DNA from: a virus
Direction: 5' to 3' (one strand)
IMG/VR virus record: IMGVR_UViG_3300013285_000087
Coordinates: 1 to 22,412 of that record
Length of the DNA stretch: 22,412 nt
A program made the position numbers and the translations under genes. The notes beneath the pieces were generated by a model. That model did no database searches. It was given only the letters and a program-made list of their open reading frames with translations, and was not told the origin of the DNA. This document shows, piece by piece, positions 3,327 through 22,412 of this stretch (position 1 is the stretch's first letter; each line of letters begins with the position of its first letter).

Positions 3327-3953
3327 ATGATTATAGGAATCACCGGGCTAATCGGGAGTGGCAAAGATACTGTTGCCAACTACCTTACCACATTTCATGG
3401 GTATAAGAAAATAAGTTTTGCATCATCATTAAAAGATGCAGTTGCCTCTGTCTTTGGATGGGATAGAGAATTGCTTGAGGGTGCTACAAAGAGCAGTAGA
3501 GAGTGGCGAGACCAAATTGATACTTGGTGGGCGGATAGACTCGATATCCCTGATCTAACACCTAGACTTATTCTACAGCATTGGGGTACTGAAGTTTGTA
3601 GACAGGGATTTCATAATGATATCTGGGTTGCTAGTGTCGAACATAAGCTAATGAATAGTCAGGAAGACATTGTTATCACTGACTGTCGCTTTATCAATGA
3701 AATCGACGGTATTAAATTCGCAGGTGGCAAAACAGTTCGGGTATATCGTGGCCCGCAGCCCATATGGTATGATGATGCAGTAGAAGCAAATCAAAAACCC
3801 AATGAGTGGACACCTGCTAAAAATCGATTAATGAATCAAGGTATCCATGCAAGTGAGTACAGTAGCGTTGGATTAGAATACGATATTCACCTAGACAACA
3901 ACGGTACTATCGATGAACTACACAAAGCAATTGAATTAATAATCAACGGATAG
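3327..3953 (+). CDS. gp1: Deoxynucleoside monophosphate kinase (T4 gp1 type)
   Basis: This 208-residue protein begins with a Walker A loop, GLIGSGKD (residues 7-14, Lys13), followed by a helix and the KISFASSLKDAV segment seen in T4 gene 1 kinase. Downstream are LQHWGTEVCRQGF (about 88-100) and the strand IVITDCRFINEI (about 117-128), which fit the nucleotide-kinase core of this family. T4 gp1 phosphorylates dTMP, dGMP and modified dCMP for phage DNA synthesis; T4 gp1 is 241 residues, so this copy is shorter. AGGAG at 3314-3318 is a good ribosome-binding site. The last 18 bases overlap the convergent gene on the other strand. Confidence 0.9.
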   Translation: MIIGITGLIGSGKDTVANYLTTFHGYKKISFASSLKDAVASVFGWDRELLEGATKSSREWRDQIDTWWADRLDIPDLTPRLILQHWGTEVCRQGFHNDIWVASVEHKLMNSQEDIVITDCRFINEIDGIKFAGGKTVRVYRGPQPIWYDDAVEANQKPNEWTPAKNRLMNQGIHASEYSSVGLEYDIHLDNNGTIDELHKAIELIING

Positions 3954-4283
3954 ATCACCGCGCTTCCAGTTAATTTCTTTACGCTTGACTACTTCAACAC
4001 AGTTCAAACAAATACTGCGTAAATTGATTAATTCAATATTTTCGAGGTTACCGTCAATGTGAAAGACCGTAATCTGAGAGGGGTAGGTACTGATAAAGCC
4101 ACATAAGTCGCACTTGGCTTTCTTTTTGTACCTACCCTTCTGCCATAACGGCTTTCTAGGTTTGAGTTTAGCTTTCTTCCTGCCACATTCATCACATATG
4201 CTTCTATAGTGAGTCACTCCGTTTCGGTTATAGTTCACTGCACATGAATTTTTGTTGCATGTTTTACAAATAGGTCTAGTCAT
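3936..4283 (-). CDS. HNH-like zinc-finger protein
   Basis: This 115-residue basic protein has four CxxC pairs: Cys6/9, Cys30/33, Cys58/61 and Cys92/95. The second half reads FHIDGNLENIELINLRSICL (about 74-93), which has the layout of an HNH endonuclease: His75, Asp77, Asn87, then a zinc-binding CxxC. The usual final His after the last CxxC is replaced (CLNCVEVVKR), so nuclease activity is doubtful. I recall similar proteins, ending RGD(L)xVDY, across T4-like aquatic phages, which argues against a recent homing insertion. It is the only leftward gene seen. It overlaps dNMP kinase by 18 bases at its end. A GTTAAATA box (4288-4295, minus strand) is only 4 bases before the ATG. Confidence 0.75.
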   Translation of the reverse strand: MTRPICKTCNKNSCAVNYNRNGVTHYRSICDECGRKKAKLKPRKPLWQKGRYKKKAKCDLCGFISTYPSQITVFHIDGNLENIELINLRSICLNCVEVVKRKEINWKRGDLSVDY

Positions 4284-4407: not shown

Positions 4408-7400
4408 ATGTCATTAACATCTCCAGGCGTAGAAGTAACAATCATTGACCAGAGCCAATATTTACCGGCTGCTGGTGGTACAGTACCACTTGTTATATTA
4501 GCTACTGCACAAAATAAAGCAGACGCATCCGGCACGGGTGTTGCAGCAGCAACTACCGCAGCTAATGCAGGCAAACTATATCAAATAACAAGTCAACGTG
4601 ACTTGGTTAATTTGTATGGGTCACCCTTCTTCTATACAACAACTAACGGTACCCCTATTCAAGGTTATGAGCTTAACGAATATGGTCTATTAGCTGCTTA
4701 CTCCGTACTAGGTGTAACAAATCGTTGTTATGTTCTACGTGCTGATATTGATTTGGCTAGTTTAGTCGGTCACACTGGTCGTCCTGTTGGATTCCCTGAC
4801 GCCGGGACAAACTGGTTAGACGCCACTATGTCAACATGGGGCATCTATCAATTCAATGCAACTACTGGTAAATTCACTGCGCAGACGCCTATCGTAATTA
4901 CTGACCCGGCAAATCTTTCAGGTAGCGGTTCCCCTCTAGCTAGTATAGGTAACATTGGTGACTATGCTATAAATTCGTTAGAAATCACAACCGCTCCTAG
5001 TGCATCTACTAGAACTTATTGGTTCAAAAATATCTACAACACTTGGGTTGCATTGGGTGGTAAAGCATGGCGCTCATCGTTACCCACAATTCAAGGTACT
5101 CAATCTAATCCCACATTGAATGTCGGTGATACGTTTACTCTTTCAATTGACAGCACAAATTCTGCTCTTATTACTGTACCGGCAGCAACAAATAATACTG
5201 TTTCCGGTATTGCAGCAGAAATCAATGCATTAGGTTGGACCTATGTTAATGCTGCTAACGTAAGCGGTAAATTGGTAATTTATTCATCACAGGAAATTGG
5301 TATAGACTTAACAGACCCTGCACAAGCTAAATATCTATCAATTACTAGTGGATTTGGCACTGTATTGGCTGACTTAGGTATTACTACAGGTAATTACTAT
5401 CAGCCGACTACGGCATACGGTAGTTCTGCTGAAATGCCACTATGGACTTCAAGTCAATCATATCCGAGACCAACTGGTTCAGTATGGGTCAAGGTTGGTG
5501 CTGCTGGTAACGGTTTATCTCCTGTTGTATCAACATTTAACGCCACTACAAACTTGTGGATTAATAAAAATGTCTCACTTGACGTTAGTGATTGGGCAGT
5601 AAGTTCAACTCTTGATGCTACTGGTGGAAAAGCAATTCCTGCAGGTTCAGTATACGGTCAATATGAATATGACTCTACTGTAATATCTGCTCCGTTATAT
5701 CTATGGGAACGCCTAGCTACCGGTGCTACTGTCGTTACTGGTTCGATTGTTTCCCCTGTATTCCCGTCTGGTACAAATCACGTGTCAGTTCGTGTAAGCG
5801 CACCGGGTAGTACTCAGTTATCTTCTCCGTATAACATTACTATTTCAAGTGCAGCTTCAGCAGTTCAGTTTGTAACAGCATGGCAACAATCCAATATCTT
5901 GTACACTACTGCTTCTATCACAACTGATGGTGCTATTCAACTTACTCACACCGAAGGTGGCGAGATTGTTATGGATGATACAGTTGACGGGTCTAACAAC
6001 TCAACAGGTGTGTCAAATGGTATTATTGCAGCAGCAGGCTTTACAATTGGTACAGTGACTGGTTCTAAATTTGGTCCTTCAACACAAGCAAACTTTCAGG
6101 TAGCGAATGTTGTTCCTGCAGTTGGTGTAAATGCTACTATTACAGTTCTATCTGTTAATAAGAGCTATATATTAAATGGTACGGGTGTAAGCTTTGGCGG
6201 AACAGGTTACTCAGTTGGTGATTTAATTACGGTACTTGGTACTCAGTTGGGTGGAACAACTCCTGGTAATGACTTGGTAGTTCGCGCCACCGCAGTTTCA
6301 GGTGGTGGAACTGTAGCAGCAGTAACTTTTGTTTCAGGTATACCATCTGCAACATTCACTACTCAGTTAAGTAACTGGGTGCAGCTTGACTATGTTTCAA
6401 ATGAGGGCGCTCCTACTGTTGCTCCTGCTAATGATACAAATTGGTTCTTCAGTGTTATCGATCAAGTTGATATCATGGTACAAAAAGGTGGTGCATGGAT
6501 CGGTTACGGTAAAACATCATATGATAGTTCAGGTCACCCTGCTGCTACTGGTGTTAATGCAACTGACCCTAATGGTCCTATCATTGCTGCCACAGCACCT
6601 ACTACACAAAGTGATGGTTCTGTATTAGTATACGGTGATTTATGGCTTAACACTAGTGATTTAGAATTGTATCCTGTTATTTCTCGTTGGGAATCAGTGA
6701 ACACTGTTAATCAGTGGGTTCTAATAGATAATGCAAACCAAGTAAGTTCAAATGGTATCGTATTTGCTGATGCTCGTTGGGCAACTTCAGGCACAGTAAG
6801 TCCTACTGATGATCCTATTGCAACTATCCCTACATTGCTACAAAGCAATTACTTAGATTTGGATGCTCCTGTAGCAACTCTATATCCACAAGGTATGTTA
6901 TTGTTTAACACACGCCGTTCAGGTTATAACGTCAAGCAATACAAGTCTAACTACTTTAACTCAACTGACTTTGCAGGTGATGTACTTCCTGCTCAGGCAG
7001 CTGCATGGGTAACTATCAGCGGTAATCAGTCAAATGGTTCACCTTTCATGGGTCGTAAAGCACAACGTGCTGTAGTTGTTCAGGCATTGAATGCAATCGT
7101 TGCTACTAATACTGATATTCGTGATGAAGATAATGCATTCACATTGATGGCTACTCCTAACTACCCAGAACTACAACCTAACATGGTCACGTTAAACAAT
7201 GATCGTGGTGATACAGGTTACATTCTAGGTGATACACCGTTGCGTTTACCGGACGATGCTACTGCAATCACTGCATGGGCTAACAATGCTGCCGGCGCAA
7301 CATCAACTGGTGAAGCAGGTTGCGTAACACGTGACACATACTTAGGTCTGTTCTATCCAAGTGGTATTACAACTGACTTGTCAGGTAATTTAGTTGCAGT

Positions 7401-7992
7401 TCCCGCTTCACACATGATGCTAAGAACGTTTATCCGTAGTGATAACATTTCTTATCCTTGGTTAGCGGCAGCAGGTACTCGTCGCGGTACTATTGATAAT
7501 GCTACTAACATCGGTTACTTAGATGGTCAATCCGGTGAGTTTATCACTATCAAGACTCGTTTGGGTATTCGTGATGTGTTGTATGCTAATGAAATTAACC
7601 CGCTAGTGTTCTTCACTGGTGTCGGCCTATTGAATTATGGTAACAAGACAAGTTTCGCATCATCAAGTGCATTAGATAGAACAAACGTTGCTCGTTTAGT
7701 TGCTTATATCCGTAGACAACTGACATTAGCTGCACGTCCGTTCGTGTTCGAGCCCAATGACTCATTGACACGTCAGCAAATAGCTGGTGTTGTTCAAACA
7801 TTGTTAGTAGACTTAGTTGCTAAACGTGGTGTTTATGATTATCTTGTCGTGTGTGATGATTCAAATAACACTCCTGCTAGAATTGACCGTAACGAACTTT
7901 GGATTGACGTTGCAATCGAGCCAGTTAAGGCAGCAGAATTCATTTACATCCCTGTTCGTATCTTGAACACAGGTGAATTGAAGAACAAGTAA
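4408..7992 (+). CDS. gp18: Contractile tail sheath protein (gp18), strongly enlarged
   Basis: This 1,194-residue protein is the contractile sheath. The N-terminus (SPGVEVTIIDQSQYLPAAGG) and the first 120 residues fit the sheath family. The C-terminal 300 residues are the typical conserved core, with FVFEPNDSLTRQQIAGVV, RGVYDYLVVCDDSNNTPARI and a final strand-rich end. T4 gp18 is 659 residues, so about 500 extra residues lie in the middle (roughly 185-830). The extra part is Thr/Ser/Gly/Asn-rich and beta-type. It includes a module with GGTGYSVGDLITV near residue 600, known from phage fibres and decoration proteins. The sheath contracts to drive the tube into the cell. A late-type box and AAAGGA precede it, and a strong terminator follows. 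Confidence 0.93.
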   Translation: MSLTSPGVEVTIIDQSQYLPAAGGTVPLVILATAQNKADASGTGVAAATTAANAGKLYQITSQRDLVNLYGSPFFYTTTNGTPIQGYELNEYGLLAAYSVLGVTNRCYVLRADIDLASLVGHTGRPVGFPDAGTNWLDATMSTWGIYQFNATTGKFTAQTPIVITDPANLSGSGSPLASIGNIGDYAINSLEITTAPSASTRTYWFKNIYNTWVALGGKAWRSSLPTIQGTQSNPTLNVGDTFTLSIDSTNSALITVPAATNNTVSGIAAEINALGWTYVNAANVSGKLVIYSSQEIGIDLTDPAQAKYLSITSGFGTVLADLGITTGNYYQPTTAYGSSAEMPLWTSSQSYPRPTGSVWVKVGAAGNGLSPVVSTFNATTNLWINKNVSLDVSDWAVSSTLDATGGKAIPAGSVYGQYEYDSTVISAPLYLWERLATGATVVTGSIVSPVFPSGTNHVSVRVSAPGSTQLSSPYNITISSAASAVQFVTAWQQSNILYTTASITTDGAIQLTHTEGGEIVMDDTVDGSNNSTGVSNGIIAAAGFTIGTVTGSKFGPSTQANFQVANVVPAVGVNATITVLSVNKSYILNGTGVSFGGTGYSVGDLITVLGTQLGGTTPGNDLVVRATAVSGGGTVAAVTFVSGIPSATFTTQLSNWVQLDYVSNEGAPTVAPANDTNWFFSVIDQVDIMVQKGGAWIGYGKTSYDSSGHPAATGVNATDPNGPIIAATAPTTQSDGSVLVYGDLWLNTSDLELYPVISRWESVNTVNQWVLIDNANQVSSNGIVFADARWATSGTVSPTDDPIATIPTLLQSNYLDLDAPVATLYPQGMLLFNTRRSGYNVKQYKSNYFNSTDFAGDVLPAQAAAWVTISGNQSNGSPFMGRKAQRAVVVQALNAIVATNTDIRDEDNAFTLMATPNYPELQPNMVTLNNDRGDTGYILGDTPLRLPDDATAITAWANNAAGATSTGEAGCVTRDTYLGLFYPSGITTDLSGNLVAVPASHMMLRTFIRSDNISYPWLAAAGTRRGTIDNATNIGYLDGQSGEFITIKTRLGIRDVLYANEINPLVFFTGVGLLNYGNKTSFASSSALDRTNVARLVAYIRRQLTLAARPFVFEPNDSLTRQQIAGVVQTLLVDLVAKRGVYDYLVVCDDSNNTPARIDRNELWIDVAIEPVKAAEFIYIPVRILNTGELKNK

Positions 7993-8059: not shown

Positions 8060-8686
8060 ATGGCAACAGCCTCACAATCATTATTTAATATGACCGTCTC
8101 AGCAGATAATGCTGGTGGCAATCAAGGTCTATTAATGCCAAAGCTACAGTACAGATTCAGAGTTAATTTCTTGAATTTTGGTGTGGGTTCGGCGCTAGAA
8201 CTAACAAAGCAAGTTATCGATTGCTCACGTCCAAACTTGACATTCGCTGAAATTACATTACCGATCTACAACTCGACTATGTACTTGGCGGGCAAGCATT
8301 CATGGGCACCAATGACAGTTAACATTAGAGATGATGCCCAGGGGGGTGTTTCTAAGTCTATCGGTCAACAGTTGCAAAAGCAATTGGACTTCGTAGAGCA
8401 AGCAAGTGCTGCAACAGGTCAAGATTACAAATTCCAAACTAACATCGAAATTCTTGATGGTGGTAACGGTACTCTTGCTCCGGTAGTATTAGAAACTTGG
8501 GAACTATACGGATGTTTCTTGGTATCAGCTAACTATAACACATTGAACTATGCAACATCAGACGTAGTTACTGTTGGTCTATCAATTCGTTTCGACAATG
8601 CGGTTCAGTCCCCATTGGGTGGCGGAGTTGGTACATCAGTTGGTCGCGCATTCGGCGGATCATCAGTAACAGGTATCGGTCAATAA
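8060..8686 (+). CDS. gp19: Tail tube protein (gp19)
   Basis: This 208-residue protein matches the T4 tail tube family along its length. It has KLQYRFRVNFLNFG near residues 29-42, then KQVIDCSRPNLTF, YLAGKHSWAPMTVNIRDDAQ (about 76-95), QLQKQLDFVEQASAATGQDY, and LETWELYGCFLVSANYNTLNY. It should stack as hexameric rings to form the channel inside the sheath. T4 gp19 is 163 residues; the extra length is mostly a glycine/serine-rich C-terminal tail (from about residue 185) and a longer N-terminus. A good AGGAGA site lies upstream. The gene order sheath then tube is that of T4. Confidence 0.95.
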   Translation: MATASQSLFNMTVSADNAGGNQGLLMPKLQYRFRVNFLNFGVGSALELTKQVIDCSRPNLTFAEITLPIYNSTMYLAGKHSWAPMTVNIRDDAQGGVSKSIGQQLQKQLDFVEQASAATGQDYKFQTNIEILDGGNGTLAPVVLETWELYGCFLVSANYNTLNYATSDVVTVGLSIRFDNAVQSPLGGGVGTSVGRAFGGSSVTGIGQ

Positions 8687-8700
8687 TTGATAACTAAGTA

Positions 8701-9840
8701 ATGTCTGGATTCTTTCAGAATGTACTTCAGGACGCTGCCGGAGCATTCTTCGGCAGCGATTACCTACGTGATTGGGAACACGCAGCAAAGACGTTTAGAC
8801 CAACCGCATATCAAAACGCACCTAAGTTAAAATTCTTATTCCACGTGTACTTTGATATAAATCCCCTAGCATATAATGTTGGTCTTGCACAGGGAACTAA
8901 TTTCGGTTTAGAAGTTAAGACTGTGAAGCTTCCTAGCTACTCATTCACTACACATGACTTGAATCAGTACAATCGCAAACGCATTGTACAAACAAAAATA
9001 AAGTATGAAGCAGTTGATATTGCATTCCATGATGATCGTGGCAATGCAATTAGAAACATGTGGTATGCGTACTACACTTATTATTATTCTGATGCGACGA
9101 AGGTGAACTCAGGTGGTCCGGGATCATCTCAGATAGTACCTGCTCCTGAATACGTGAAACGTAATATATACGACAAGTCAACAACCGGTAATGCTGATTG
9201 GGGATTTTCAGGTGAACCGTCACTAAAGTCTCTTACTCAAACCAAAGAACCATTCTTTAAGAATATTACTATATTCAGTATGAATCAGCATAACTATGCA
9301 GCATACTCTTTGATTAATCCCATTATTACTAGATTCGGTCATGACACACATAGTTATGCTGAAGGATCAGGTACAATGGAGAATACTATGTCACTTGATT
9401 ATGAAACAGTGAAGTATTACGAAGGTGCTATAAGTGGTAATAATCCCGGACAGATAGTCACCGGCTTCGGTGACCAAGCCACATATGACCGAACGGTAAG
9501 CCCTATATCAAAACCCGGTTCACAGGCGTCGATACTAGGTCAGGGTGGTCTAGTAGATGCAGCAGGCGGTATACTGAATGACTTAACCCCTGATGAGAAT
9601 GGTAATATTAATATCCTCGGAGCCGTACAGGCTGCAGGTACAGCATACAACACATTTAAAAATGTTAATTTGGCACAAGTTGCAAAATCTGAAGTGCTCG
9701 CGGGTATTACTAACGCAGTGGTACAAACCCCGAATAGAAATATACTATTCCAATTCCCTGTAGCCGGAGCAACAGGCGGTACTACTGCAACTAACGGTGC
9801 CTTAGTAACCCCACCAAGAGTAATTACGGTAACTAAGTAA
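8701..9840 (+). CDS. Second tail-tube-like structural protein (possibly gp54-like junction protein)
   Basis: This 379-residue protein starts MSGFFQNVLQDAAGAFFGSD, then has PKLKFLFHVYFDIN (about 41-54), a strand resembling the tube protein's KLxFxFxVxF, and VKTVKLPSYSFTTHDLNQYN. The segment from NRKRIVQTKIKYEAV to MWYAYYTYYYSD, with FHDDRGN in between, resembles a tube-fold core. The C-terminal 130 residues are Gly/Ala/Thr/Asn-rich. I recall this protein next to gp19 in T4-like aquatic phages. It may be the tube-initiating baseplate protein (gp54/gp48 role), but that is inference. It starts 14 bases after gp19 without a clear ribosome-binding site, so coupling to gp19 is plausible. Confidence 0.65.
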   Translation: MSGFFQNVLQDAAGAFFGSDYLRDWEHAAKTFRPTAYQNAPKLKFLFHVYFDINPLAYNVGLAQGTNFGLEVKTVKLPSYSFTTHDLNQYNRKRIVQTKIKYEAVDIAFHDDRGNAIRNMWYAYYTYYYSDATKVNSGGPGSSQIVPAPEYVKRNIYDKSTTGNADWGFSGEPSLKSLTQTKEPFFKNITIFSMNQHNYAAYSLINPIITRFGHDTHSYAEGSGTMENTMSLDYETVKYYEGAISGNNPGQIVTGFGDQATYDRTVSPISKPGSQASILGQGGLVDAAGGILNDLTPDENGNINILGAVQAAGTAYNTFKNVNLAQVAKSEVLAGITNAVVQTPNRNILFQFPVAGATGGTTATNGALVTPPRVITVTK

Positions 9841-10230: not shown

Positions 10231-10665
10231 ATGGCAAAATATGCGACCGGGATATTCACACCCAAAAACACAGCCAAGTACATAGGTAAACGGGCCCCTC
10301 GTTATCGAAGCGGATGGGAGCTTACATTCATGAATTTCTGTGATTCGAACAGTAGTGTATTATATTGGGCTAGTGAAGCGATTAGTATCCCGTATAAAAA
10401 CCCGGTTACCGGTAAAGCATCTATGTATATCCCGGATTTCTTTGTAGTATATCAAAATAAATTTGGTAAAAAGATTGCTGAAGTAGTTGAAATCAAGCCC
10501 AAGAAACAAAGTGTTATTGAGGGTAAACAAACCGCCGGGGCTAAAATGGTAGTAGCAGTTAATCATGCTAAATGGCAAGCGGCAATGGCTTACTGTAAAC
10601 ATCAAGGATACGTATTTAGAGTGTTAACTGAGTTTGACATTTTTCATAATGGCAAAGCAAGATAA
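10231..10665 (+). CDS. gp4: Head completion protein (gp4 type)
   Basis: This 144-residue protein is close in length to T4 gp4 (150). The core has RSGWELTFMNFCDSNSSVLY (about 26-45), then WASEAISIPYKNPVTGK and YIPDFFVVYQNKFGKK, followed by a strand with EVVEIKPKKQ. The E near residue 30, the PDFF aspartate and the EIKPKK glutamate/lysine resemble the D/E-x-K nuclease fold. The T4 protein completes the DNA-filled head before tail attachment. It lies 2 bases after the previous gene, with no separate late box and no good ribosome-binding site, so translation is probably coupled. Confidence 0.85.
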   Translation: MAKYATGIFTPKNTAKYIGKRAPRYRSGWELTFMNFCDSNSSVLYWASEAISIPYKNPVTGKASMYIPDFFVVYQNKFGKKIAEVVEIKPKKQSVIEGKQTAGAKMVVAVNHAKWQAAMAYCKHQGYVFRVLTEFDIFHNGKAR

Positions 10666-11825: not shown

Positions 11826-14414
11826 ATGAAAGACATGTTAAAAAAGCTCTCAGAGCTACAAAACGCCGATACTACCAAAACTAATATCAATGAAGCTGCT
11901 AATGCATTTGATTGGAAGAACAAACCCGCTGATTCAGTAGGCCAAAAATCTGCTAATATCAAGCACAAAGGTACTTACGGTACTGAATATCAAGGTGATA
12001 CTGATGATCTAGCTGCAATTTCTAAAAAGAAAAAAGCTGCTGCCGCAACAACTGAAAAGCGCGGCCGCGGTCGTCCTCCTAAGACAGATTCAGGCGAAGG
12101 CGATAGTAAAAAGTATGCTAATGCTGCTGCTCTACAAAGCTTTATGATTGGCAACAAACCAAGCAAAGCTGTTGAAAAACTTCCAAAGACAAAGAGCAAT
12201 AGAACTCTTAAAGACTGGATCGAATCATATGAACCGGCCATCAATGAAGCAACATTACCGGGTGCATTAACTGCTACTCCAATGGCAGGCGCGACAGCAA
12301 TTAAGAATGCACAAGGCCAACAAGTTGCAACTGCTGCAACTCCGCAAGCTGCTGCTATGATGACTAAGGGCGATGTTACTTTAACTGATCCTACTAAGAC
12401 ACTAGGTGAAGAAGCCACTGGAAAGACAGCACGTATTTTCTTCAATAAAGATTTAGGTGAGTACACGGTCAAGTTCTATCAAAACGGTAAGCACATGGCT
12501 GATGCTGATTACTTCACTGATGATAAAGAAGATGCTCGTGGTACTGCTAAGGCAGAGACTGCTGCTAAAGAAGAAGAAGTTGACGAAGCCACCGGTCGTG
12601 GCAAGTGGGATTCTAATTCCAGTGACTACGAAGGTGATTATGGCGGCGCAGAAAACTGGGGCAAACGTGAACGTGAAGATGATGAAGGTTATGCACGTAC
12701 TAAAGATGCAGATGATGAATTCAATCGTACTCTTGCACGTACTCGTCCACAGGGTCAAAAGACTAATGAAGCTAAGAAAGCTAAACCAGACTTCCTGGAC
12801 GTTGATAAAGACGGCAACAAAAAAGAATCTTTCAAGAAGGCCGTCAAAGATAAAGAAGCTAAGCCGGTCGAAGAAGCAAAGAAGCCAAGTGCAGGCATGA
12901 CTAAAGGTGAAAAATCATCTGTAGTTAAAAAAGCTAAAGCCGGCGAAGATATCGGTAAGCCAGGCAAAGGCTTTGCTAAAGTTGAAAAAGCCGCTGCTAA
13001 GTCAGGTGCTAAAGATCCCAAAGCTGTCGCTGCTGCTGCAATGTGGAAAGGTCAAGCTAAGAAAGTTTCAGAAAGCAAAATGTCTGAACTAGATGCTGCT
13101 CTTAAAGATAAAAATTATTCAGAAGCTGACTTTAAAAAGCAATATGGTAAGACTAAGGCTGACATGAGAGCAGCTATGAAAGACAAGCCAGAAGCTAAAA
13201 AGCCAGTTAAAGAAAGCAAGATCATGGAATCTGCTGACACACTAGCGCACATCATTAATACATTCAAGCACGAAGTAAAGAACTTTGTTGCAGGTGATGA
13301 CTTAGATAGCGATTTGTTTGATGCATTATATGACTACTATGCTAATTCAGGTGAAATGCCTTACGGCACAATGAAGGCGCGTGATGGTGATCCGTACGAA
13401 TGGGTATCAGATCGTTTCAATAATGATGTGCATGATCACATCGAACCTGAATTAGATGAAGGTTCAAAAGAAGACTTTACTACACACGGTATGGATAGCA
13501 AGCCATCACGATTTATTGCTGTTCCTGCAAAACCTACACAGACTCCGTGGAGCAAAGATCCTATCGCTGCAATGACTGATCGTATCTATGATAAGTTTGC
13601 AAGCAAGCCAAAGAATCCTCAGTTTGAAAGCTGGAGCACACAGTTAGATTCATTGTTGAATGAAGATATCACTGAAGGCATGACCGTTTCTATCAGCAAA
13701 GGCCAACAAGGTTCACCTGATTCAGTTAGCATCAATGCATCAGATGCAGACGCTGAACAATTGCTTTCACTAGTTAAGAGCGCAGGTTTAGGTCTATTTG
13801 GTGGTGATGACGAAGGTCAATCAACAGGTGGAATGAGCATGCCATCAACAGTAACCTCTTCTGGTCCTGCTGACGTTGAAGTAGTCGATGATCATGATGG
13901 TATGTTATCTCTTATTCGTAAGATGACAGGTCAAGCAGAACCAGAGTCAAGTGAAGACTATGCTGACGAAGAAAGTGTTGAACATGAACACGGCACCGAA
14001 GAAGAAGTTTGCGGTGATTGCGGTAGCAGTGAATGTGAATGTGGTGCTGAAGAAGTAGTTGACGAAACGGAAACAGAAAATCAAAGAGAATTTGAAGTTT
14101 CTGAAGATGATAATGTAGCACAAGCCGGTGCAGAAGAAAGTAGTGAAGATTCAGCACTAGCAGCAGCAGATGGTCAAACTCAAAGCGCACAGGAAGAAGA
14201 ACCTGAAGAAGAAGAAGAGTTAGACGAAGCGTATGCTAACAGTGATGATGACAAATTTCAAACTGATATCGATTTCATGACTAACATCATTACTGGTGGA
14301 TTGAATGGCAAGAAACGTACACAGTCAGTTGGCAATCCAGTTACGATTGCTTCTACTCCGATGAAAGAATCTTCAGATTTGCTTTCAGATTTTAAGAAGC
14401 TTAGTGGACTATAA
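11826..14414 (+). CDS. Large acidic, low-complexity putative internal head or scaffold protein
   Basis: This 862-residue protein is rich in Ala, Lys, Glu and Asp and looks largely disordered. (I/L)-x-E sites of prohead protease type occur at 21-23, 139-141, 466-468, 611-613 and 615-617, and could release segments. PDFLDVDKDGNKKESF (about 319-334) resembles an EF-loop. AKAGEDIGKPGKGFAKVEKA and AAAAMWKGQAKK follow. A compact part (DTLAHIINTFKHEVKNFVAG to the MTVSIS strand) precedes GLFGGDDE. Four cysteines in EEVCGDCGSSECECGAEE (about 724-741) could bind zinc. The ending resembles proteins I recall from T4-like aquatic phages, annotated variably as scaffold or head. No function is proven. Confidence 0.6.
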   Translation: MKDMLKKLSELQNADTTKTNINEAANAFDWKNKPADSVGQKSANIKHKGTYGTEYQGDTDDLAAISKKKKAAAATTEKRGRGRPPKTDSGEGDSKKYANAAALQSFMIGNKPSKAVEKLPKTKSNRTLKDWIESYEPAINEATLPGALTATPMAGATAIKNAQGQQVATAATPQAAAMMTKGDVTLTDPTKTLGEEATGKTARIFFNKDLGEYTVKFYQNGKHMADADYFTDDKEDARGTAKAETAAKEEEVDEATGRGKWDSNSSDYEGDYGGAENWGKREREDDEGYARTKDADDEFNRTLARTRPQGQKTNEAKKAKPDFLDVDKDGNKKESFKKAVKDKEAKPVEEAKKPSAGMTKGEKSSVVKKAKAGEDIGKPGKGFAKVEKAAAKSGAKDPKAVAAAAMWKGQAKKVSESKMSELDAALKDKNYSEADFKKQYGKTKADMRAAMKDKPEAKKPVKESKIMESADTLAHIINTFKHEVKNFVAGDDLDSDLFDALYDYYANSGEMPYGTMKARDGDPYEWVSDRFNNDVHDHIEPELDEGSKEDFTTHGMDSKPSRFIAVPAKPTQTPWSKDPIAAMTDRIYDKFASKPKNPQFESWSTQLDSLLNEDITEGMTVSISKGQQGSPDSVSINASDADAEQLLSLVKSAGLGLFGGDDEGQSTGGMSMPSTVTSSGPADVEVVDDHDGMLSLIRKMTGQAEPESSEDYADEESVEHEHGTEEEVCGDCGSSECECGAEEVVDETETENQREFEVSEDDNVAQAGAEESSEDSALAAADGQTQSAQEEEPEEEEELDEAYANSDDDKFQTDIDFMTNIITGGLNGKKRTQSVGNPVTIASTPMKESSDLLSDFKKLSGL

Positions 14415-14519: not shown

Positions 14520-17500
14520 ATGAGCCAGCAAAATATAGACTTCGGATCATTTCCTGATGATCCTAGCGCAGATGCAATACGAACAGCCTTTCAAAAAGTA
14601 CAAGAGAACTTTGATGAAGTGTTTGCTGTTACAACAGGTGTAGGCGTTACCTCCATAAATAAAACACCCGGCGCGGGAATAACAGTTAGTCAGCCCACCG
14701 GTAATGTAATTGTCACGGCAAATATTGCGTGTGTACAAGTAAGTACAAGTTCGTTAAGTATTGGCCGCGGGAGCAACGGTAGTACATCAGCCACGATAAC
14801 ATCATCGGGTCAAGTATTGGTCATAGATATAAACCCAAATACAGTTTATTCAAATTTATTTGCAGCACCTGGCACCGGATTAGCAAGCTTTAACGGTACG
14901 TTAACTGCTAACTCGAATGCGCAACCTAACATTACTTCAGTTGGTACATTAGTCGGTCTATCAGTAAATAGTGGTGGCATAGGATCAGTCGGTAATATAA
15001 CTGCTCCTTACTTTATAGGTGCAGTTCAAGGCGCCGCAACGACAGCAGGTACTGTAACAACAGCAGCACAACCAAATATCACTAGTACAGGAACTTTGAC
15101 AGCACTAGCAGTTACAGGTAATATTTCAGCCGGAAACGTAAATTCAACGTTCTATGGTGCAGCTACTGGTTTAACATCTATACCAGGTGCAAACGTAACC
15201 GGTACTGTTGCCAATGCAACAACCGCAGTTAAATCCGGCACAGTAACAACTAACGCACAGCCGAACATCACTTCAGTTGGTACGTTAACTACTCTATCAG
15301 TTACCGGCAATATATCAGCAGGCAATGTATCAGCAACTACCTTCACTGGTGCATTAACTGGTGCAGCGACAACTGCAGGTACAGTTACAACTGCTGCGCA
15401 ACCAAATATTACATCAGTTGGTACTTTATCTGCGCTAGCAGTAACAGGTAATATCTCAGGTGCCAACTTGACAGGTACACATTACGGAGCAGCTACTGGA
15501 TTGACCTCAATTCCGGGCGCTAATGTAACCGGTACTGTTGCTAATGCAACATATGCAGTAAGTGCAGGCAGTGCAACAACTGCGGGTAGTGCAACGACAG
15601 CAGGCACAGTTACAACTGCTGCACAGCCGAATATTACTAGTACAGGAACGTTAAGCGCATTAGCAGTTACCGGCAATATAACAGCCGGCAATGTAAATGC
15701 AGGTAACTTACTAACAGCAACGTATGTAACAGGCACGCTAACAACTGCTGCGCAATCGAACATTACTTCAGTTGGAACATTGACTGCACTAGCAGTAACA
15801 GGTAACATCTCTGGTGCTAACTTAACCGGTATTCATTACGGAGCAGCTACCGGGTTGACTTCAATTCCTGGTGCAAACGTAACCGGTACTGTACCACTTG
15901 CAACAAGCGCAACCACAGCAGGTAGTGCAACGACAGCAGGCACTGTAACGACAGCGGCACAACCAAATATTACTTCAGTTGGAACATTGTCTGCTCTAGC
16001 AGTAACTGGTAATATCTCAGGTGCCAACTTGACAGGTACACATTACGGAGCAGCTACTGGATTGACCTCAATTCCGGGCGCTAATGTAATCGGTACTGTT
16101 GCTAACGCAACATATGCAGTAAGTGCGGGTACGGCCGGTAGTGCAACTACAGCAGGTACTGTCACAACAGCAGCACAGCCAAACATCACTAGCACAGGGA
16201 CTTTAAGCGCATTAGCAGTTACCGGCAATATATCAGCAGGCAATGTATCAGCAACTACCTTCACTGGTGCATTGACTGGTGCAGCAACTACGGCCGGCGC
16301 TGTCACAACTGCTGCACAGCCAAATATCACGTCTGTTGGAACTTTGACCGGACTTTCCGCTAGCGGCAATATTTCTGCACCGTGGTTCTTGGGTAACGTA
16401 TCGGGTAATATTTCAGGTAACATTGTTGTTCCCGGAGCAGATACACAAGTCATATTTAATAATAACGGCAATGCCGGTGCGAGTGCGAATTTAACCTTTA
16501 ATGGTGATGTGTTAGCGGTTACCGGTAACGTTAATGCAACCGCAGTAAATGCAATATTCTATGGAGCAGCAACTGGGTTGACTTCAATACCGGGTGCTAA
16601 TGTAACCGGTACAGTACCACTCGCAACAAGTGCAACAAGTGCAACTACCGCAGGTACAGTTACAACTGCTGCACAGCCAAACATCACTAGTACAGGTACT
16701 TTATCTACCCTATCAGTTACCGGTACAGTAACAGCCGGCAACTTATCAACGGCCGGTAATCTCTCAGTGACAGGTAACGCAACTATTACTGGTAACCTAT
16801 CAGCAGCGGTATTCACTGGTGCAGGAACTGGTCTATCATTCTTGCCCGCCGCAAATATATCAGGTACTGTTGCTAATGCGACATACGCACTAAGTGCAGG
16901 TAGTGCAACAAGTGCAGGTAGTGCAACAACTGCAGGTACAGTTACAACTGCTGCACAGCCAAACATCACTAGTACAGGTACTTTATCTGCATTAGCAGTA
17001 ACAGGTAATATCTCTGGTGCTAACTTAACTGGAACGCATTACGGAGCAGCTTCCGGATTGACTTCAATCCCAGGTGCTAATGTAACCGGTACAGTACCAC
17101 TTGCAACAAGTGCTACTACAGCAGGTATTGCTACTACAGCAGGTACCGTCACAACAGCAGCACAACCAAACATTACGTCTGTCGGAACATTGAGCGCATT
17201 AGCAGTAACAGGTAACATCTCTGGCGCCAACTTAACTGGAACTCATTACGGAGCAGCCACCGGGTTGACTTCAATCCCGGGTGCTAACGTAACCGGTACT
17301 GTACCACTCGCAACAAGCGCTACTACCGCAGGTAGCGCTACAACAGCCGCTACTGCCGGTACTGTTACAACTGCCGCACAACCAAATATTACTAGTACAG
17401 GAACATTATCTGCATTAATTGTGTCAGGTAATGTGAATGCCGGTAATGTTGCAGGCGGCAACTTAGTAGCAGCATCTTATCTTCAGGGCACATTAACAAC

Positions 17501-20500
17501 TAATGCACAGCCAAATATTACGTCTGTTGGTACTTTAACTGCACTAGCAGTAACAGGTAACATCTCTGGCGCCAACTTAACTGGAACTCACTACGGAGCA
17601 GCAACCGGCTTAACAGCTATTCCGGGCGCTAATGTAACCGGTACTGTACCACTCGCAACAAGCGCAACAACTGCAGGTAGTGCAACTGCCGCAGGTACTG
17701 TTACAACTGCCGCACAACCAAATATTACTAGTACAGGAACATTATCTGCATTAATTGTGTCAGGTAATATCGCAGGTGGTAATATAAATGCAGGTAACTT
17801 ACTAGCAGCAAATTATGTCGCCGGCGCATTAACAACTGCTGCACAGCCAAATATCACGTCTGTCGGTACTTTATCTGCACTAGCAGTAACAGGTAACATT
17901 TCTGGTGCTAATTTAACTGGTACTCATTATGGCGCAGCAACTGGCTTGACTTCAATTCCAGGTGCTAATGTAACCGGTACGGTAGCTAATGCAACATATG
18001 CAGTAAGTGCGGGCACAGTAGGTACCGTAACAACAGCAGCGCAGCCGAATATCACCAGTACAGGTACATTATCTGCTCTAGTGGTAACAGGTAACATATC
18101 ATCCGGTAATGCTAATTTAGGTAATGCAGTAACAGCGAACTATTTTGTGGGTAGTGGTCAATATATTACTAACCTGAACGCAGGTACAAACATCACTAAT
18201 GATGGAAGTAATATTGTAGTAGCAGCATCGGGAAATATTACGTTCGGAATCGCCGGAATTAATAATGTATTAGTAATGACTAATACTCTTTCTACTCTGT
18301 CTAGTAATTTAACTGTCGTTGGTAATATAGTAGCAAGTAATATAGCAGCAAATTACTTTTCGGGGCAATTTATAGGTACAGTATTAACTAATGCACAACC
18401 TGATATTACTTCACTGGGTGCATTAAGTTCACTGACAGTTAGCGGTATCTCTGATTTGAATGCTGTAGGTAATATAAAAATTTCAGGCGGTAGTTTAAAT
18501 ACTTACTTAACAACTGACGGGGCAGGCAATCTTACCTGGACATCAGGTGCATTTAGTCCAGTGGCCGGATCACCTACACAAGTTCAATTCAACAATAATG
18601 GTATCTTCGGTGCAAGTCCTAACTTAACATTTACCGGTAACTTACTAGCACTAATTGGTAATATGACAGCCGGTAATATTAGTGGTGCAAATGCAATAAG
18701 TGCGAATTTCTTGACGGGTGTATTAACTACTAATGCCCAACCTAATATTACTAGCGTGGGAACACTAAGTTCATTGATTGTATCGGGTAATATTAACTCT
18801 GGAAACGTGTCGGGTGGTAACTTAGTACGTGCTAATTATCTTCTGGGCACATTAACAACTGCTGCCCAACCGAATATTACTAGTACAGGCACATTGACTA
18901 CCTTGTCAGTTACTGGTAACATGTCAGCCGGTAACGTAAATGCAGGTAACTTATTAATTGCTAATTTCTCATCAGCTACACTATTGACAGGTGCTCAGCC
19001 AAATATTACTTCTGTGGGGACATTGCTTTCATTGGCAGTAACTTCTAATGTGCAAGCAGGTAATTTATATTCAAATGGATTATTACTAGTAACATCTAAT
19101 GCAAACGTGGGTAATTTAGGTACAACTGGATTGATTGTTGCTACCGGTAATATAACCGCTGGTAATCTAGTTACTGCGGGTAATTTATCAGTTACCGGTA
19201 ATGCATCAGTTGGTAACATTAGTGCAACCTCACATACAGGTGGAAACGTCACTGTAACAGGCAATGTTACTGGTGGAAACTTAGTAACAAGTGGTCTTGT
19301 ATCAGCAACTGGTAATGTTACTGGCGGAAACTTAGTAACAGGTGGTGCATTATCAGCAACTGGCAATGTTACTGGCGGAAACTTAGTAACAGGTGGTGCA
19401 TTATCAGCAACTGGTAATGCAAACGTAGGTAATCTAGGTACAACTGGATTAATCGTTGCTAGTGGTAATATAACTGGCGGTAACATAATAACTGCTGGCT
19501 CGCTATCAGTAACTGGTAATGCAGCGGTTGGTAATCTAAGCACAGTTGGATTAGTAGTCGGCACCGGCAATATAACATCTAATGCGAATGTTGTAACAAA
19601 TAACATTCTAGGTAGAACGACTGGTGTCACAATTACTGCAACAGGTACTGATCAAAATATTTCATTAGTACCAACAGGGAACGGTACAGTTGATGTTTCA
19701 TCTAAGCGTATTACTAGTTTAATAGACCCTATTAATGCAACTGATGCTGCTACGAAAGCATATGTAGATGCAACTGCTAGTAATCTAAGCGTTAAAGCTG
19801 CGTGTCAAGTGGCAACCACTGACGCACTAACTGCTAATTATAATAACGGCACCAGTGGTTTTAATGCAACGCTAACAGCTACTACTAATGTAATATTACC
19901 TAATATTGATGCTTATCCTAGTATACAAGTTGGATATCGTATTCTTGTAAAGAATCAGGCATCTACTCTACAAAATGGTATATATGTTGTATCAAGTTTG
20001 GGTTCTGCAGGTTCGTCACCTTGGATACTAACTCGTGCAACTGACTTTGACGGAAACAATCCTCTATCAGAAATAACAGCCGGAGACTTTACGTTTATTC
20101 AAGAAGGTAGTACTCAGGCTAACTCAGGTTGGACAGTAACTTCTATCGGTACAGGCATGCCCGGTGAATATATTATAGTAGGAACAGATCCTATCACATT
20201 CACTCAGTTCTCCGGAGCTGGCACATACTCGGCTGGTACCGGTCTTACATTAGCGGGCACGGTGTTTAGTATTGCTAACACAACAGTAACTCCGGCATCA
20301 TACGGTGGTTCTACTGCTATCCCTGCATTCACTGTTAATCAACAAGGTCAATTAACTATCGCAAGTACATCAGTAGTTATCGCTCCTGCAGGAACATTAA
20401 CAGGTGCAACATTAAATTCAACTATTGTTACATCAAGCTTGACAACAGTAGGAACGTTGGGTTCGCTGACAGTCACTGCTAATATAAGTGCAGGTAATAT

Positions 20501-22412
20501 CAACGCACCAACATTTGGTGCACATAACGGAACAGTCGGAGCAACAATAGCTAATACAGGTAACTTTACTACGATAGCCGGTACTGCTATAACAGGCACC
20601 GGTAACGTAACTGGTGCTAACTTAGTTACTAGCGGTGTATTATCAGTTACTGGTAATGCAAACGTAGGTAATTTGGGTACGACTACTGCAACTATATCTA
20701 CTGCCAACATAACAACAATAAACGCTGCAACCATCAATGCAAATACTGTTATTAATGTAACTTCTGCTACAGAAGCAACAAACACCACAACTGGTTCTAT
20801 CAAGACGGCAGGCGGTATTGGTGTAGTGGGTAATGCGGTAATCGGTAATGCATTATATGTGGGTGCAGGTGCCGCATCAACGACATTTATTAACCCGGTT
20901 ATAATTGCTAAAAATACGGGTGCAACTTATATCCAAGCCGCAATTATAAATGCTTCAACAACCGGATCATCAGATTGGATAGCATACGGAGATACGGGTA
21001 CTGATTCACAGTCGTGGGTGGACATAGGATTTACTAGCAGTGCATTTAACGATCCTGTTTATACTATTACAGGTCCCAATGACGGTTATGTATTCGCATT
21101 GGGTGATACTGCTAACACACACGGCGGTAACTTAGTATTTGCTACCGGTTCACAAGGCACTACTAAAGATTTAGTATTCGCTACGGGCGGCTTCTTAGGT
21201 GCTAATGAGAAAATGCGCTTTATACATGCGACCGGTCAATTCTATATTGAACCTACTACGGTGGCAACCAACACAACAACAGGTGCATTGCGTGTAGCAG
21301 GCGGGGTTGGTATCAGCGGCAATGCATACGTCGGTGGGCTATTAGCAGTAACAGGTAATATCTCTGGTGCTAACGTCACCGGTACTCACTACGGAGCAGC
21401 AACCGGGTTGACTTCAATACCGGGTGCTAATGTAACCGGTACTGTACCACTCGCAACAAGCGCAACAAGCGCAACTACCGCAGGTACTGTTACAACTGCC
21501 GCACAACCAAATATCACTTCAGTTGGTACACTAACTAGTTTGAACTCAAGTGGTACAATTACTGCCCCTGCATTCACGTCGAACACCGGTGTATTTACTG
21601 GTAACGGATCAGGCTTGTCTGCAATTGCGGGTGCTAACGTAACCGGTACTGTTTCATTAGCTAACGTTGCTACATATGATTCAATCACTACTGCAACAAC
21701 GGGTGTTATTTATGCACAGTTCTCTAATTCATTATCAGGAACAGCAATCGCATATGCGAATTCAGTTTATACTGCTAATATTGCTAACGGATCATTTGCA
21801 GCGACCACATTCGTCGGGGCCTTAAGTGGTCTTGCTTCAAGCGCAACAGTAGCGGCTTCTGCAAATGCAGTAGCAGGTGCTAACGTAAGTGGAGCAGTAG
21901 CATTCGCAACTACAGCAAATGCAGTAGCAGGTGCTAACGTAAGTGGTACAGTTGCAGCAGCAACATTAGCCTCATTCGCAACTACAGCAAATGCAGTAGC
22001 AGGTGCTAACGTAAGTGGAGCAGTAGCATTCGCAACTACAGCAAATGCAGTAGCAGGTGCTAACGTAAGTGGAGCAGTAGCATTCGCAACTACAGCAAAT
22101 GCAGTAGCAGGTGCTAACGTAAGTGGTACAGTGGCTCTAGCTACTACTGCAGGTACTGTTACAACAGCAGCACAGCCAAACATTACTTCAGTTGGAACAT
22201 TGAGTGCATTAGCAGTTACTGGCAACATCACCGGTGCTAACTTAACCGGTACTCATTACGGAGCAGCAACTGGCTTAACAGCTATTCCCGGAGCTAACGT
22301 AAGCGGTACAGTATCATCTGCTTCATTGGCTACGTTCGCAACAACAGCAAACGCAGTAGCAGGAGCTAACGTAAGCGGTACAGTATCATCTGCTTCATTG
22401 GCTACGTTCGCA
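14520..22412 (+). CDS. Giant modular tail fibre or adhesin (partial, at least 2,631 residues)
   Basis: An open frame runs from the ATG at 14520 to the window end with no stop; I followed it through most of its length. Residues 1-40 carry ADAIRTAFQKVQENFDEVFA, a variant of the D-P-L-R-x-A-F-x-K-x-N-x-N-F motif found at the N-terminus of T4-like baseplate and fibre proteins. The rest is Thr/Ala/Gly/Asn-rich, with about 23 copies of AQPNITSVGTL or a close variant, usually joined to AVTGNISGANLTG, ATGLTSIPGANVTGTV and ATTAGTVTTA. Distinct insertions are TQVxFNNNG motifs (about 638 and 1353), a DAATKAYVDA motif and fibre domain (about 1730-1910), and a probable beta domain (about 2120-2270). The shaft repeats resemble marine phage fibres and suggest a long host-contact fibre. 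The distal tip lies beyond the window. Confidence 0.92.
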   Translation, partial: MSQQNIDFGSFPDDPSADAIRTAFQKVQENFDEVFAVTTGVGVTSINKTPGAGITVSQPTGNVIVTANIACVQVSTSSLSIGRGSNGSTSATITSSGQVLVIDINPNTVYSNLFAAPGTGLASFNGTLTANSNAQPNITSVGTLVGLSVNSGGIGSVGNITAPYFIGAVQGAATTAGTVTTAAQPNITSTGTLTALAVTGNISAGNVNSTFYGAATGLTSIPGANVTGTVANATTAVKSGTVTTNAQPNITSVGTLTTLSVTGNISAGNVSATTFTGALTGAATTAGTVTTAAQPNITSVGTLSALAVTGNISGANLTGTHYGAATGLTSIPGANVTGTVANATYAVSAGSATTAGSATTAGTVTTAAQPNITSTGTLSALAVTGNITAGNVNAGNLLTATYVTGTLTTAAQSNITSVGTLTALAVTGNISGANLTGIHYGAATGLTSIPGANVTGTVPLATSATTAGSATTAGTVTTAAQPNITSVGTLSALAVTGNISGANLTGTHYGAATGLTSIPGANVIGTVANATYAVSAGTAGSATTAGTVTTAAQPNITSTGTLSALAVTGNISAGNVSATTFTGALTGAATTAGAVTTAAQPNITSVGTLTGLSASGNISAPWFLGNVSGNISGNIVVPGADTQVIFNNNGNAGASANLTFNGDVLAVTGNVNATAVNAIFYGAATGLTSIPGANVTGTVPLATSATSATTAGTVTTAAQPNITSTGTLSTLSVTGTVTAGNLSTAGNLSVTGNATITGNLSAAVFTGAGTGLSFLPAANISGTVANATYALSAGSATSAGSATTAGTVTTAAQPNITSTGTLSALAVTGNISGANLTGTHYGAASGLTSIPGANVTGTVPLATSATTAGIATTAGTVTTAAQPNITSVGTLSALAVTGNISGANLTGTHYGAATGLTSIPGANVTGTVPLATSATTAGSATTAATAGTVTTAAQPNITSTGTLSALIVSGNVNAGNVAGGNLVAASYLQGTLTTNAQPNITSVGTLTALAVTGNISGANLTGTHYGAATGLTAIPGANVTGTVPLATSATTAGSATAAGTVTTAAQPNITSTGTLSALIVSGNIAGGNINAGNLLAANYVAGALTTAAQPNITSVGTLSALAVTGNISGANLTGTHYGAATGLTSIPGANVTGTVANATYAVSAGTVGTVTTAAQPNITSTGTLSALVVTGNISSGNANLGNAVTANYFVGSGQYITNLNAGTNITNDGSNIVVAASGNITFGIAGINNVLVMTNTLSTLSSNLTVVGNIVASNIAANYFSGQFIGTVLTNAQPDITSLGALSSLTVSGISDLNAVGNIKISGGSLNTYLTTDGAGNLTWTSGAFSPVAGSPTQVQFNNNGIFGASPNLTFTGNLLALIGNMTAGNISGANAISANFLTGVLTTNAQPNITSVGTLSSLIVSGNINSGNVSGGNLVRANYLLGTLTTAAQPNITSTGTLTTLSVTGNMSAGNVNAGNLLIANFSSATLLTGAQPNITSVGTLLSLAVTSNVQAGNLYSNGLLLVTSNANVGNLGTTGLIVATGNITAGNLVTAGNLSVTGNASVGNISATSHTGGNVTVTGNVTGGNLVTSGLVSATGNVTGGNLVTGGALSATGNVTGGNLVTGGALSATGNANVGNLGTTGLIVASGNITGGNIITAGSLSVTGNAAVGNLSTVGLVVGTGNITSNANVVTNNILGRTTGVTITATGTDQNISLVPTGNGTVDVSSKRITSLIDPINATDAATKAYVDATASNLSVKAACQVATTDALTANYNNGTSGFNATLTATTNVILPNIDAYPSIQVGYRILVKNQASTLQNGIYVVSSLGSAGSSPWILTRATDFDGNNPLSEITAGDFTFIQEGSTQANSGWTVTSIGTGMPGEYIIVGTDPITFTQFSGAGTYSAGTGLTLAGTVFSIANTTVTPASYGGSTAIPAFTVNQQGQLTIASTSVVIAPAGTLTGATLNSTIVTSSLTTVGTLGSLTVTANISAGNINAPTFGAHNGTVGATIANTGNFTTIAGTAITGTGNVTGANLVTSGVLSVTGNANVGNLGTTTATISTANITTINAATINANTVINVTSATEATNTTTGSIKTAGGIGVVGNAVIGNALYVGAGAASTTFINPVIIAKNTGATYIQAAIINASTTGSSDWIAYGDTGTDSQSWVDIGFTSSAFNDPVYTITGPNDGYVFALGDTANTHGGNLVFATGSQGTTKDLVFATGGFLGANEKMRFIHATGQFYIEPTTVATNTTTGALRVAGGVGISGNAYVGGLLAVTGNISGANVTGTHYGAATGLTSIPGANVTGTVPLATSATSATTAGTVTTAAQPNITSVGTLTSLNSSGTITAPAFTSNTGVFTGNGSGLSAIAGANVTGTVSLANVATYDSITTATTGVIYAQFSNSLSGTAIAYANSVYTANIANGSFAATTFVGALSGLASSATVAASANAVAGANVSGAVAFATTANAVAGANVSGTVAAATLASFATTANAVAGANVSGAVAFATTANAVAGANVSGAVAFATTANAVAGANVSGTVALATTAGTVTTAAQPNITSVGTLSALAVTGNITGANLTGTHYGAATGLTAIPGANVSGTVSSASLATFATTANAVAGANVSGTVSSASLATFA
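14929..18070 (+). repeat. AQPNIT repeat array within the fibre gene
   Basis: Seventeen in-frame copies of the module AQPNIT(S/T)-x-GTL lie here (first at about 14929), with linking modules that vary in number. Copies are not evenly spaced. Some blocks are identical at DNA level: 15447-15528 equals 16008-16089 (82 bases, offset 561 = 187 codons), and a stretch from 17361 recurs from 17697 (offset 336 = 112 codons). The offsets are multiples of three, so exchange between copies keeps the frame. Confidence 0.9.
18396..19020 (+). repeat. Diverged AQPNIT repeats
   Basis: Four more copies occur here (near 18396, 18735, 18865 and 18993), with more divergent third positions and joined to modules such as NLVRANYLLGTL. 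The first reads AQPDITSLG. They appear older than the upstream copies. Confidence 0.8.
19254..19406 (+). repeat. 51-base tandem repeat (17-residue unit) in the fibre gene
   Basis: Three tandem units of 17 codons start at 19254, 19305 and 19356. The unit reads ATGNVTGGNLVTGGALS. The second and third are nearly identical at DNA level and the first is diverged (VTGNVTGGNLVTSGLVS). The pattern suggests recent in-frame duplication. Confidence 0.85.
21861..22136 (+). repeat. 54-base tandem repeat (18-residue unit) in the fibre gene
   Basis: The unit FATTANAVAGANVSGAVA occurs as a partial copy at 21861-21902 and full copies at 21903, 21975, 22029 and 22083. The copy at 21903 has an extra 18 bases. 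Copies at 21975-22028 and 22029-22082 are identical over all 54 bases, a sign of very recent duplication. Confidence 0.9.
22335..22412 (+). repeat. 72-base repeat unit running off the window
   Basis: A 24-codon unit, FATTANAVAGANVSGTVS plus SASLAT, starts at 22335 and its next copy begins at 22407, six bases before the window ends. The tandem array therefore continues outside, and its true copy number is unknown. Confidence 0.85.

Follow-up and report, generated by a model that had tools for sequence, protein, structure and literature searches.

The window analyzed here, a stretch of 22,412 bp that constitutes the entire IMG/VR record IMGVR_UViG_3300013285_000087 (class virus), ends within a gene whose product, to judge from its sequence and its relatives, is probably an adsorption fibre of a jumbo T4-like myophage, a single polypeptide anchored to the baseplate, with a modular shaft and a tip subject to exchange. 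In such a fibre residues 1-42 would, by homology, plug into the baseplate wedge like gp9/gp10-type proteins; the array of Thr/Ala/Gly/Asn modules would fold into a largely beta, trimeric shaft serving as a spacer whose length can evolve; this shaft would be broken up by a globular domain at aa ~1737-1918; and a tip with the XD1 fold would cap the trimer, touch the sugars of the host surface, or both. The fibre may have a role in host range. The comparisons presented below further suggest that the array may grow, shrink, and homogenize via recombination between its own repeats, and that the tip may be traded as a unit between related phages.

The fibre ORF (14520..22412, + strand) starts with an ATG and comprises 2,631 codons devoid of a stop before being truncated at its 3' side by the contig end; the ORF check thus agrees with the earlier note, according to which the frame was open for at least that number of codons and not closed in the window. 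The chance of an open run of this length is about 1e-68 for composition-matched random codons. In a comparison with the closest complete relative—locus L089, found by a scan with the distal region and bearing a complete 3,094-aa fibre on a 105-kb contig—1,020 aligned codons contained 137, 86, and 460 differences at the first, second, and third codon positions, respectively, which distribution indicates purifying selection. The frame is thus coding and under purifying selection. Since the window is the whole record, its own genome offers no extension of the gene, but the window is broadly collinear with L089 up to the window end, the distal half being mostly 77-92% identical; and because that relative measures 3,094 aa, the fibre of the window probably lacks some 400-500 aa, including the tip. 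The L089 fibre gene is preceded by genes matching the 160-aa, 205-aa, and 862-aa genes of the window and followed by those for a GH19-like endolysin, an Ig-domain protein, and a 342-aa protein.

The gene is no isolated case but a member of a family that is common among uncultivated phages. A search with aa 1-160 of the fibre recovered at least 130 viral contigs bearing the same head of ~110 aa, 80 of those 130 relatives being retained for the comparison of loci; several relatives lie on contigs of 230-364 kb. A DNA search against isolated phages gave no match, nor was a close relative of the fibre found among those phages. The shortest complete member, L034, has 283 aa (its contig measures 364 kb), and the longest, L090/L091, has 3,565 aa; the shafts, either of the AQPNITS type or collagen-like GXY (the GFSGTSG type included), vary between practically nil and some 3,400 residues. 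Given this range, the exceptional standing that the earlier note had suggested for the fibre by comparison with T4 gp37 is not supported; and a comparison with that protein alone is weak because the T4 long tail fibre is assembled from four proteins. In L090, an ORF that by eye resembles a GIY-YIG endonuclease (L090:1946-2509) immediately precedes the fibre gene of 3,565 aa.

Among the genes of the window that precede the fibre, the tail sheath (4408..7992, + strand, 1,194 aa) is nearest to those of jumbo phages, e.g., PA5oct, Atu_ph07, and Phosso. There follow, likewise on the + strand, the tail tube (8060..8686), a second tube-like protein (8701..9840), a head-closure protein or endonuclease fold (10231..10665), and, directly upstream of the fibre, a Lys/Glu-rich, low-complexity protein of 862 aa (11826..14414) with a weak match to PHROG 7884, whose gene adjoins the fibre in the relatives too and is thus conserved in position. 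The fibre gene is located after the sheath, tube, and head-closure genes, and the relative in cyanophage S-B05 lies beside an annotated wedge initiator. As separate observations, the sheath contains a large insertion with respect to T4-like sheaths, its best PHROG being the 915-position family 10581, and in the interval that separates the sheath from a dNMP-kinase-like gene we recognized by eye a small cysteine-rich HNH-like ORF (3936-4283, - strand).

The head (14520..14849, +; aa 1-110) has a mean pairwise identity of 70% among the family members with tip A, one of the tips described below, and begins with a gp9/gp10-type baseplate anchor motif (NIDFGSFPDDPSADAIRTAFQKVQENFDEVF; 14520..14645, +; aa 1-42). 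The best PDB match of the head profile was residues 2-42 of T4 gp10 (whole-sequence E 0.03; domain E 0.24). With a span of about 40 residues this is a short match, and one that would be borderline if judged by the PDB search alone. The profile-profile comparison (hhalign) yielded P values of 3.7e-6 against gp10 and 0.002 against gp9; and in a tblastn search of the head against isolated phages the matches were weak and, among those listed, largely annotated as gp10-type baseplate wedge proteins. The gp10-anchor assignment is strengthened by two findings. Most large relatives possess a second gene, of ~176-181 aa, that agrees with the head over its first 40 residues, there reading INIGAQPNDGEGDPLRTAFQKINNNF (L250:3884-4420, L251:3362-3907, L252:3966-4511, L253:2972-3511, L254:3689-4222, L249:3640-4173, and L255:3443-3973), which short gene possibly encodes an adaptor or the basal counterpart of gp9/gp10. 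In addition, a 458-aa protein of S-B05 carries the head (profile E 3.6e-9 in a single-sequence test) along with VTG-type repeats, and its gene sits between those of the annotated baseplate wedge initiator and a wedge subunit. The N-terminal baseplate-type motif proposed in the earlier note is thus borne out by the gp10 profile match, the profile-profile P value, and the position of the S-B05 gene. The wedge-initiator gene that adjoins the head-motif fibre gene of S-B05 (L259, MK799832.1 13191-25265) is annotated with a length of 12 kb. A scan of bacterial genomes with the head gave a single match, which was judged spurious, there being no head-like ORF at that site.

Beyond the head, three repeat systems compose much of the fibre: the AQPNITSxGTL modules, an array of a 17-aa unit (VTGNVTGGNLVTGGALSA), and another of an 18-aa unit (ANAVAGANVSGAVAFATT). 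The anchor AQ[PS][ND]ITSxG[AT]L occurs in 23 copies in the ORF, so that the earlier figure of about 23 modules is correct by anchor count, the copies not being uniform and their spacing uneven: 43-119 aa, followed by 836 and 223 aa. Modules 1-16 make up the proximal array (14919..18038, +; aa 134-1173), the site of what appears to be recent turnover within the gene; modules 17-20 are accompanied by inserted non-module stretches (18039..18992, +). There follow the 17-aa VTGN..GGN..GG repeats (19140..19589, +; aa ~1541-1690), a conserved fibre domain (DAATKAYVD...; 19728..20273, +; aa ~1737-1918), a distal stretch that is mostly non-repetitive and 89% identical to L089 (20580..21360, +), and the 18-aa ANAVAGANVSG tandem repeats (21861..22132, +), whose 54-bp unit is in part 100% identical from copy to copy. 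Taken as a whole, the region of aa ~1700-2310 is for the most part free of repeats and aligns collinearly with L089, with an identity of about 80-92%. The description of the body as one long run of short modules consequently stands with respect to the modules, but not as a body of repeats only, in view of the stretch of ~600 aa and the embedded domain that forms part of it. The claim of a modular build with domains embedded is supported. The embedded domain had tblastn matches in 48 phage records, some of them annotated as capsid or head decoration, and matched orf22 of PDB 9efk (E 1.2e-17). The shaft module matches the PHROG 6942 tail fibre profile (E to 2.6e-27), and by this match and the embedded domain the protein displays the extended, repeat-built shaft with recognized modules or domains that is expected of a long tail fibre. 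With the shaft module as a query tblastn returned no match, probably because of the low-complexity filter; and the structure prediction of the shaft, which like that of L034 described below was a monomer model, contained no secondary structure and was uninformative.

Within the same gene, modules 3-8 and 11-16 find their nearest sibling at an identity of 0.78-0.95, vs. 0.69-0.85 for the best L089 module, modules 4 and 7 sharing 95% identity in DNA; modules 17, 18, 21, and 22 are nearest to modules of L089. On a tree of the concatenated neighbours (the tube, head-closure, 160-aa, and 205-aa genes), both the tip type and the shaft class changed at least five times. In the pairs L057/L062 and L017/L033 the neighbours are 90-93% identical in DNA without any detectable similarity between the tips, while in L011/L022 the tips are 90% identical vs. 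73-76% for the neighbours. Near-identical modules (≥90 bp, ≥88%) were shared between different phages in six pairs only, two of these among close relatives, for which reason a wholesale traffic of modules between phages is not supported. The assembly by repeat exchange that the earlier note had suggested is accordingly upheld, though chiefly as intragenic turnover, evident from the modules nearest to their siblings, plus tip exchange, evident from the tip replacements. Whereas the turnover pattern and the replacement of tips can be read directly from these comparisons, recombination as the process behind the turnover we infer. In a separate instance, the GXY-shaft fibres of L049 (L049:10001-17863) and of L051/L053/L054 (10001-13852 in each) measure 2,620 vs. 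1,283 aa in the presence of neighbours 87-93% identical in DNA, which difference would represent a recent two-fold change in fibre length.

Two main tips occur in the family, tip A (TLQFIAPTTTQWYTVGATYA), which is the most frequent, and tip B (YADLAEYY...IGKAL...VGR), a few members carrying others. The monomer model of L034, which protein is nearly head plus tip only, reached a pLDDT of about 90 at residues ~210-280; and VIA-align placed the Solidus tailspike first for residues ~204-283 of that model, through residues 611-700 of the tailspike, its C-terminal domain (Z 8.3). For the same residues, which hold tip A, the program gave KP1 9f4b_FA 64-151 (Z 6.9), T4 gp9 80-167 (6.8), CBA120 TSP4 79-179 (6.6), CpaA (5.8), T4 gp10 63-150 (5.8), and StcE (5.1). 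Most of these Z-scores are below 8 and individually middling, and the assignment is one of predicted fold alone; nevertheless, because the list coincides with the relatives reported for the XD1 domain of TSP4—gp9, gp10, CpaA, and StcE (PMC8825819, Table 2)—and because the protein carries a gp10-type anchor, tip A likely adopts the XD1 fold of T4 gp9/gp10 and CBA120 TSP4. By sequence, tip A obtained only chance matches in the PDB and no signal in the profile-profile comparison with gp10. A Foldseek search against predicted viral proteins retrieved many matches from uncultured Caudovirales phages, one of them annotated as collagen-repeat, indicating that the tip is common without informing on its function. 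Tip B had no match in the PDB, Pfam, or NCBIfam, and its PHROGs matches were weak, to families listed as unknown or tail and to one listed as scaffold, for which reason this tip receives no assignment. Judging from the relatives, the missing C-terminus of the window's fibre is most likely an XD1-fold tip like that of L089.

The mean identity is 0.70 for the head, 0.57 for tip A, and 0.70 for the tube, so that in conservation the head and tip A come close to the structural neighbours, which circumstance leaves room for a spacer or trimer-cap role as opposed to a fast-evolving receptor site. The protein might then be a spacer decorating the baseplate or the head surface, an anchored whisker whose task is to hold other fibres apart or to attach non-specifically to polysaccharide; and that conservation, the description of XD1 modules as apparent spacers (PMC8825819), and the capsid or head-decoration annotations among the matches of the embedded domain would all fit. 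We nonetheless regard this explanation as rather unlikely: the tips are swapped among close relatives, as a specificity module would be, the gp10-type anchor is a baseplate feature, and the fold nearest to that of the tip belongs to a tailspike, as its C-terminal domain. Less probable still is a docking scaffold, whose C-terminal gp10-like domain would carry a second fibre as in the branched complexes of CBA120 and G7C. The tip fold, being that of the XD1 family of TSP4 and T4 gp9/gp10 and conserved across phages, would suit such a function; but in TSP4 and gp10 the partners are bound by XD2/XD3, XD1 not docking trimers (PMC8825819), and neither XD2 nor XD3 was detected in the general Pfam, PHROGs, and PDB sequence searches.

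The baseplate-anchored adsorption fibre that we favour is composed of parts of known kinds: a gp9/gp10 anchor, the XD1 fold, PHROG 6942 modules, and a common fibre domain. The family shares with T4 gp10 and gp9 the anchor motif at the N-terminus (residues 2-42 of gp10) as well as a domain of the XD1 fold; but in T4 the XD1 directly follows the anchor (residues ~63-150), whereas in the family a shaft of a few tens to several thousand residues parts the two, the XD1-like domain being C-terminal in the tip-A relatives and the tip-B relatives having another domain at their end. Since the XD1 does not directly follow the anchor, we class the fibre as gp10-anchored and not as gp9 or gp10. The branched proteins of the CBA120 TSP4 and G7C gp66 type (PMC8825819, PMC6872550) also reuse gp10-type domains, and TSP4 shares the XD1 fold; in the family, however, no depolymerase domain appeared in the family searches, and the single XD1-like domain is distal instead of adjacent to the anchor. 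The S-B05 protein (QCW22830) and its relatives, in turn, coincide in head profile, repeats, and wedge-initiator neighbour, that protein differing in its length of 458 aa and in having neither tip A nor tip B. The AQPNITS-type module is common to the tail fibre proteins of PHROG 6942, the best stretch covering about 30 of the 708 profile positions, with a different head and length, while 9efk orf22 and the cyanophage and pelagiphage fibres share only the embedded domain. From the abstract of PMC12619734 no link to the moraphages could be established.

The family thus resembles a gp9/gp10-type anchor from which an expandable shaft has set the XD1 domain at a distance, an arrangement of which—at any shaft length—the literature searched contained no description, a weak absence in view of the few subscription journals covered. 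As a tentative proposal, less likely than not to hold in its entirety, a gp9/gp10-type protein may have become a telescopic fibre, in which the XD1 moved distally to serve as a sugar-binding tip (CpaA and StcE have glycan-binding domains of the same fold), the length was tuned from 283 to 3,565 aa by intragenic repeat recombination, and the tips were traded between phages. The locus in any event offers a natural length series at one orthologous position—with the same anchor, a 12-fold range of length, shafts of two chemistries unrelated to each other, and two main tips—in phages that are common though uncultivated, so that one may ask which fibre length is favoured by selection and observe what would be repeat recombination and tip trading in action.

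That the length of the fibre should be an artefact, with repeats joined or multiplied by the assembler, is highly improbable: for all that contig ends are ~4 times denser in the fibre gene and the window itself stops within an exact 51-nt repeat, the modules are mostly 67-85% identical to each other in DNA and the longest exact repeat in the gene is of 100 nt, which figures make an artefactual origin of the 7-kb array unlikely, while an independent IMG/VR record, L089, has the collinear 3,094-aa relative, and other complete relatives (L011, L014, and L090/L091) exceed 2,800 aa. At a smaller scale, the copy number of the 54-bp tandem at 21973-22126 may have been miscounted. The terminal repeat (22290..22412, +) consists of 22290-22340 and the identical 22362-22412, on which copy the contig stops, whereas the opposite end of the window has a match of 8 nt only; the truncation is what repeats would cause. 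Over the 80 related loci, 30 contig ends fell in 280 kb of fibre gene vs. 20 in 740 kb upstream and 9 in 269 kb downstream (0.107 vs. 0.027-0.033 per kb; p 1.4e-6). Because ends on long exact repeats are a minority among the other loci, coverage or strain variation must contribute to the breaks, and the repeat-rich fibre accounts in part for the breaking of metagenomic contigs at this gene.
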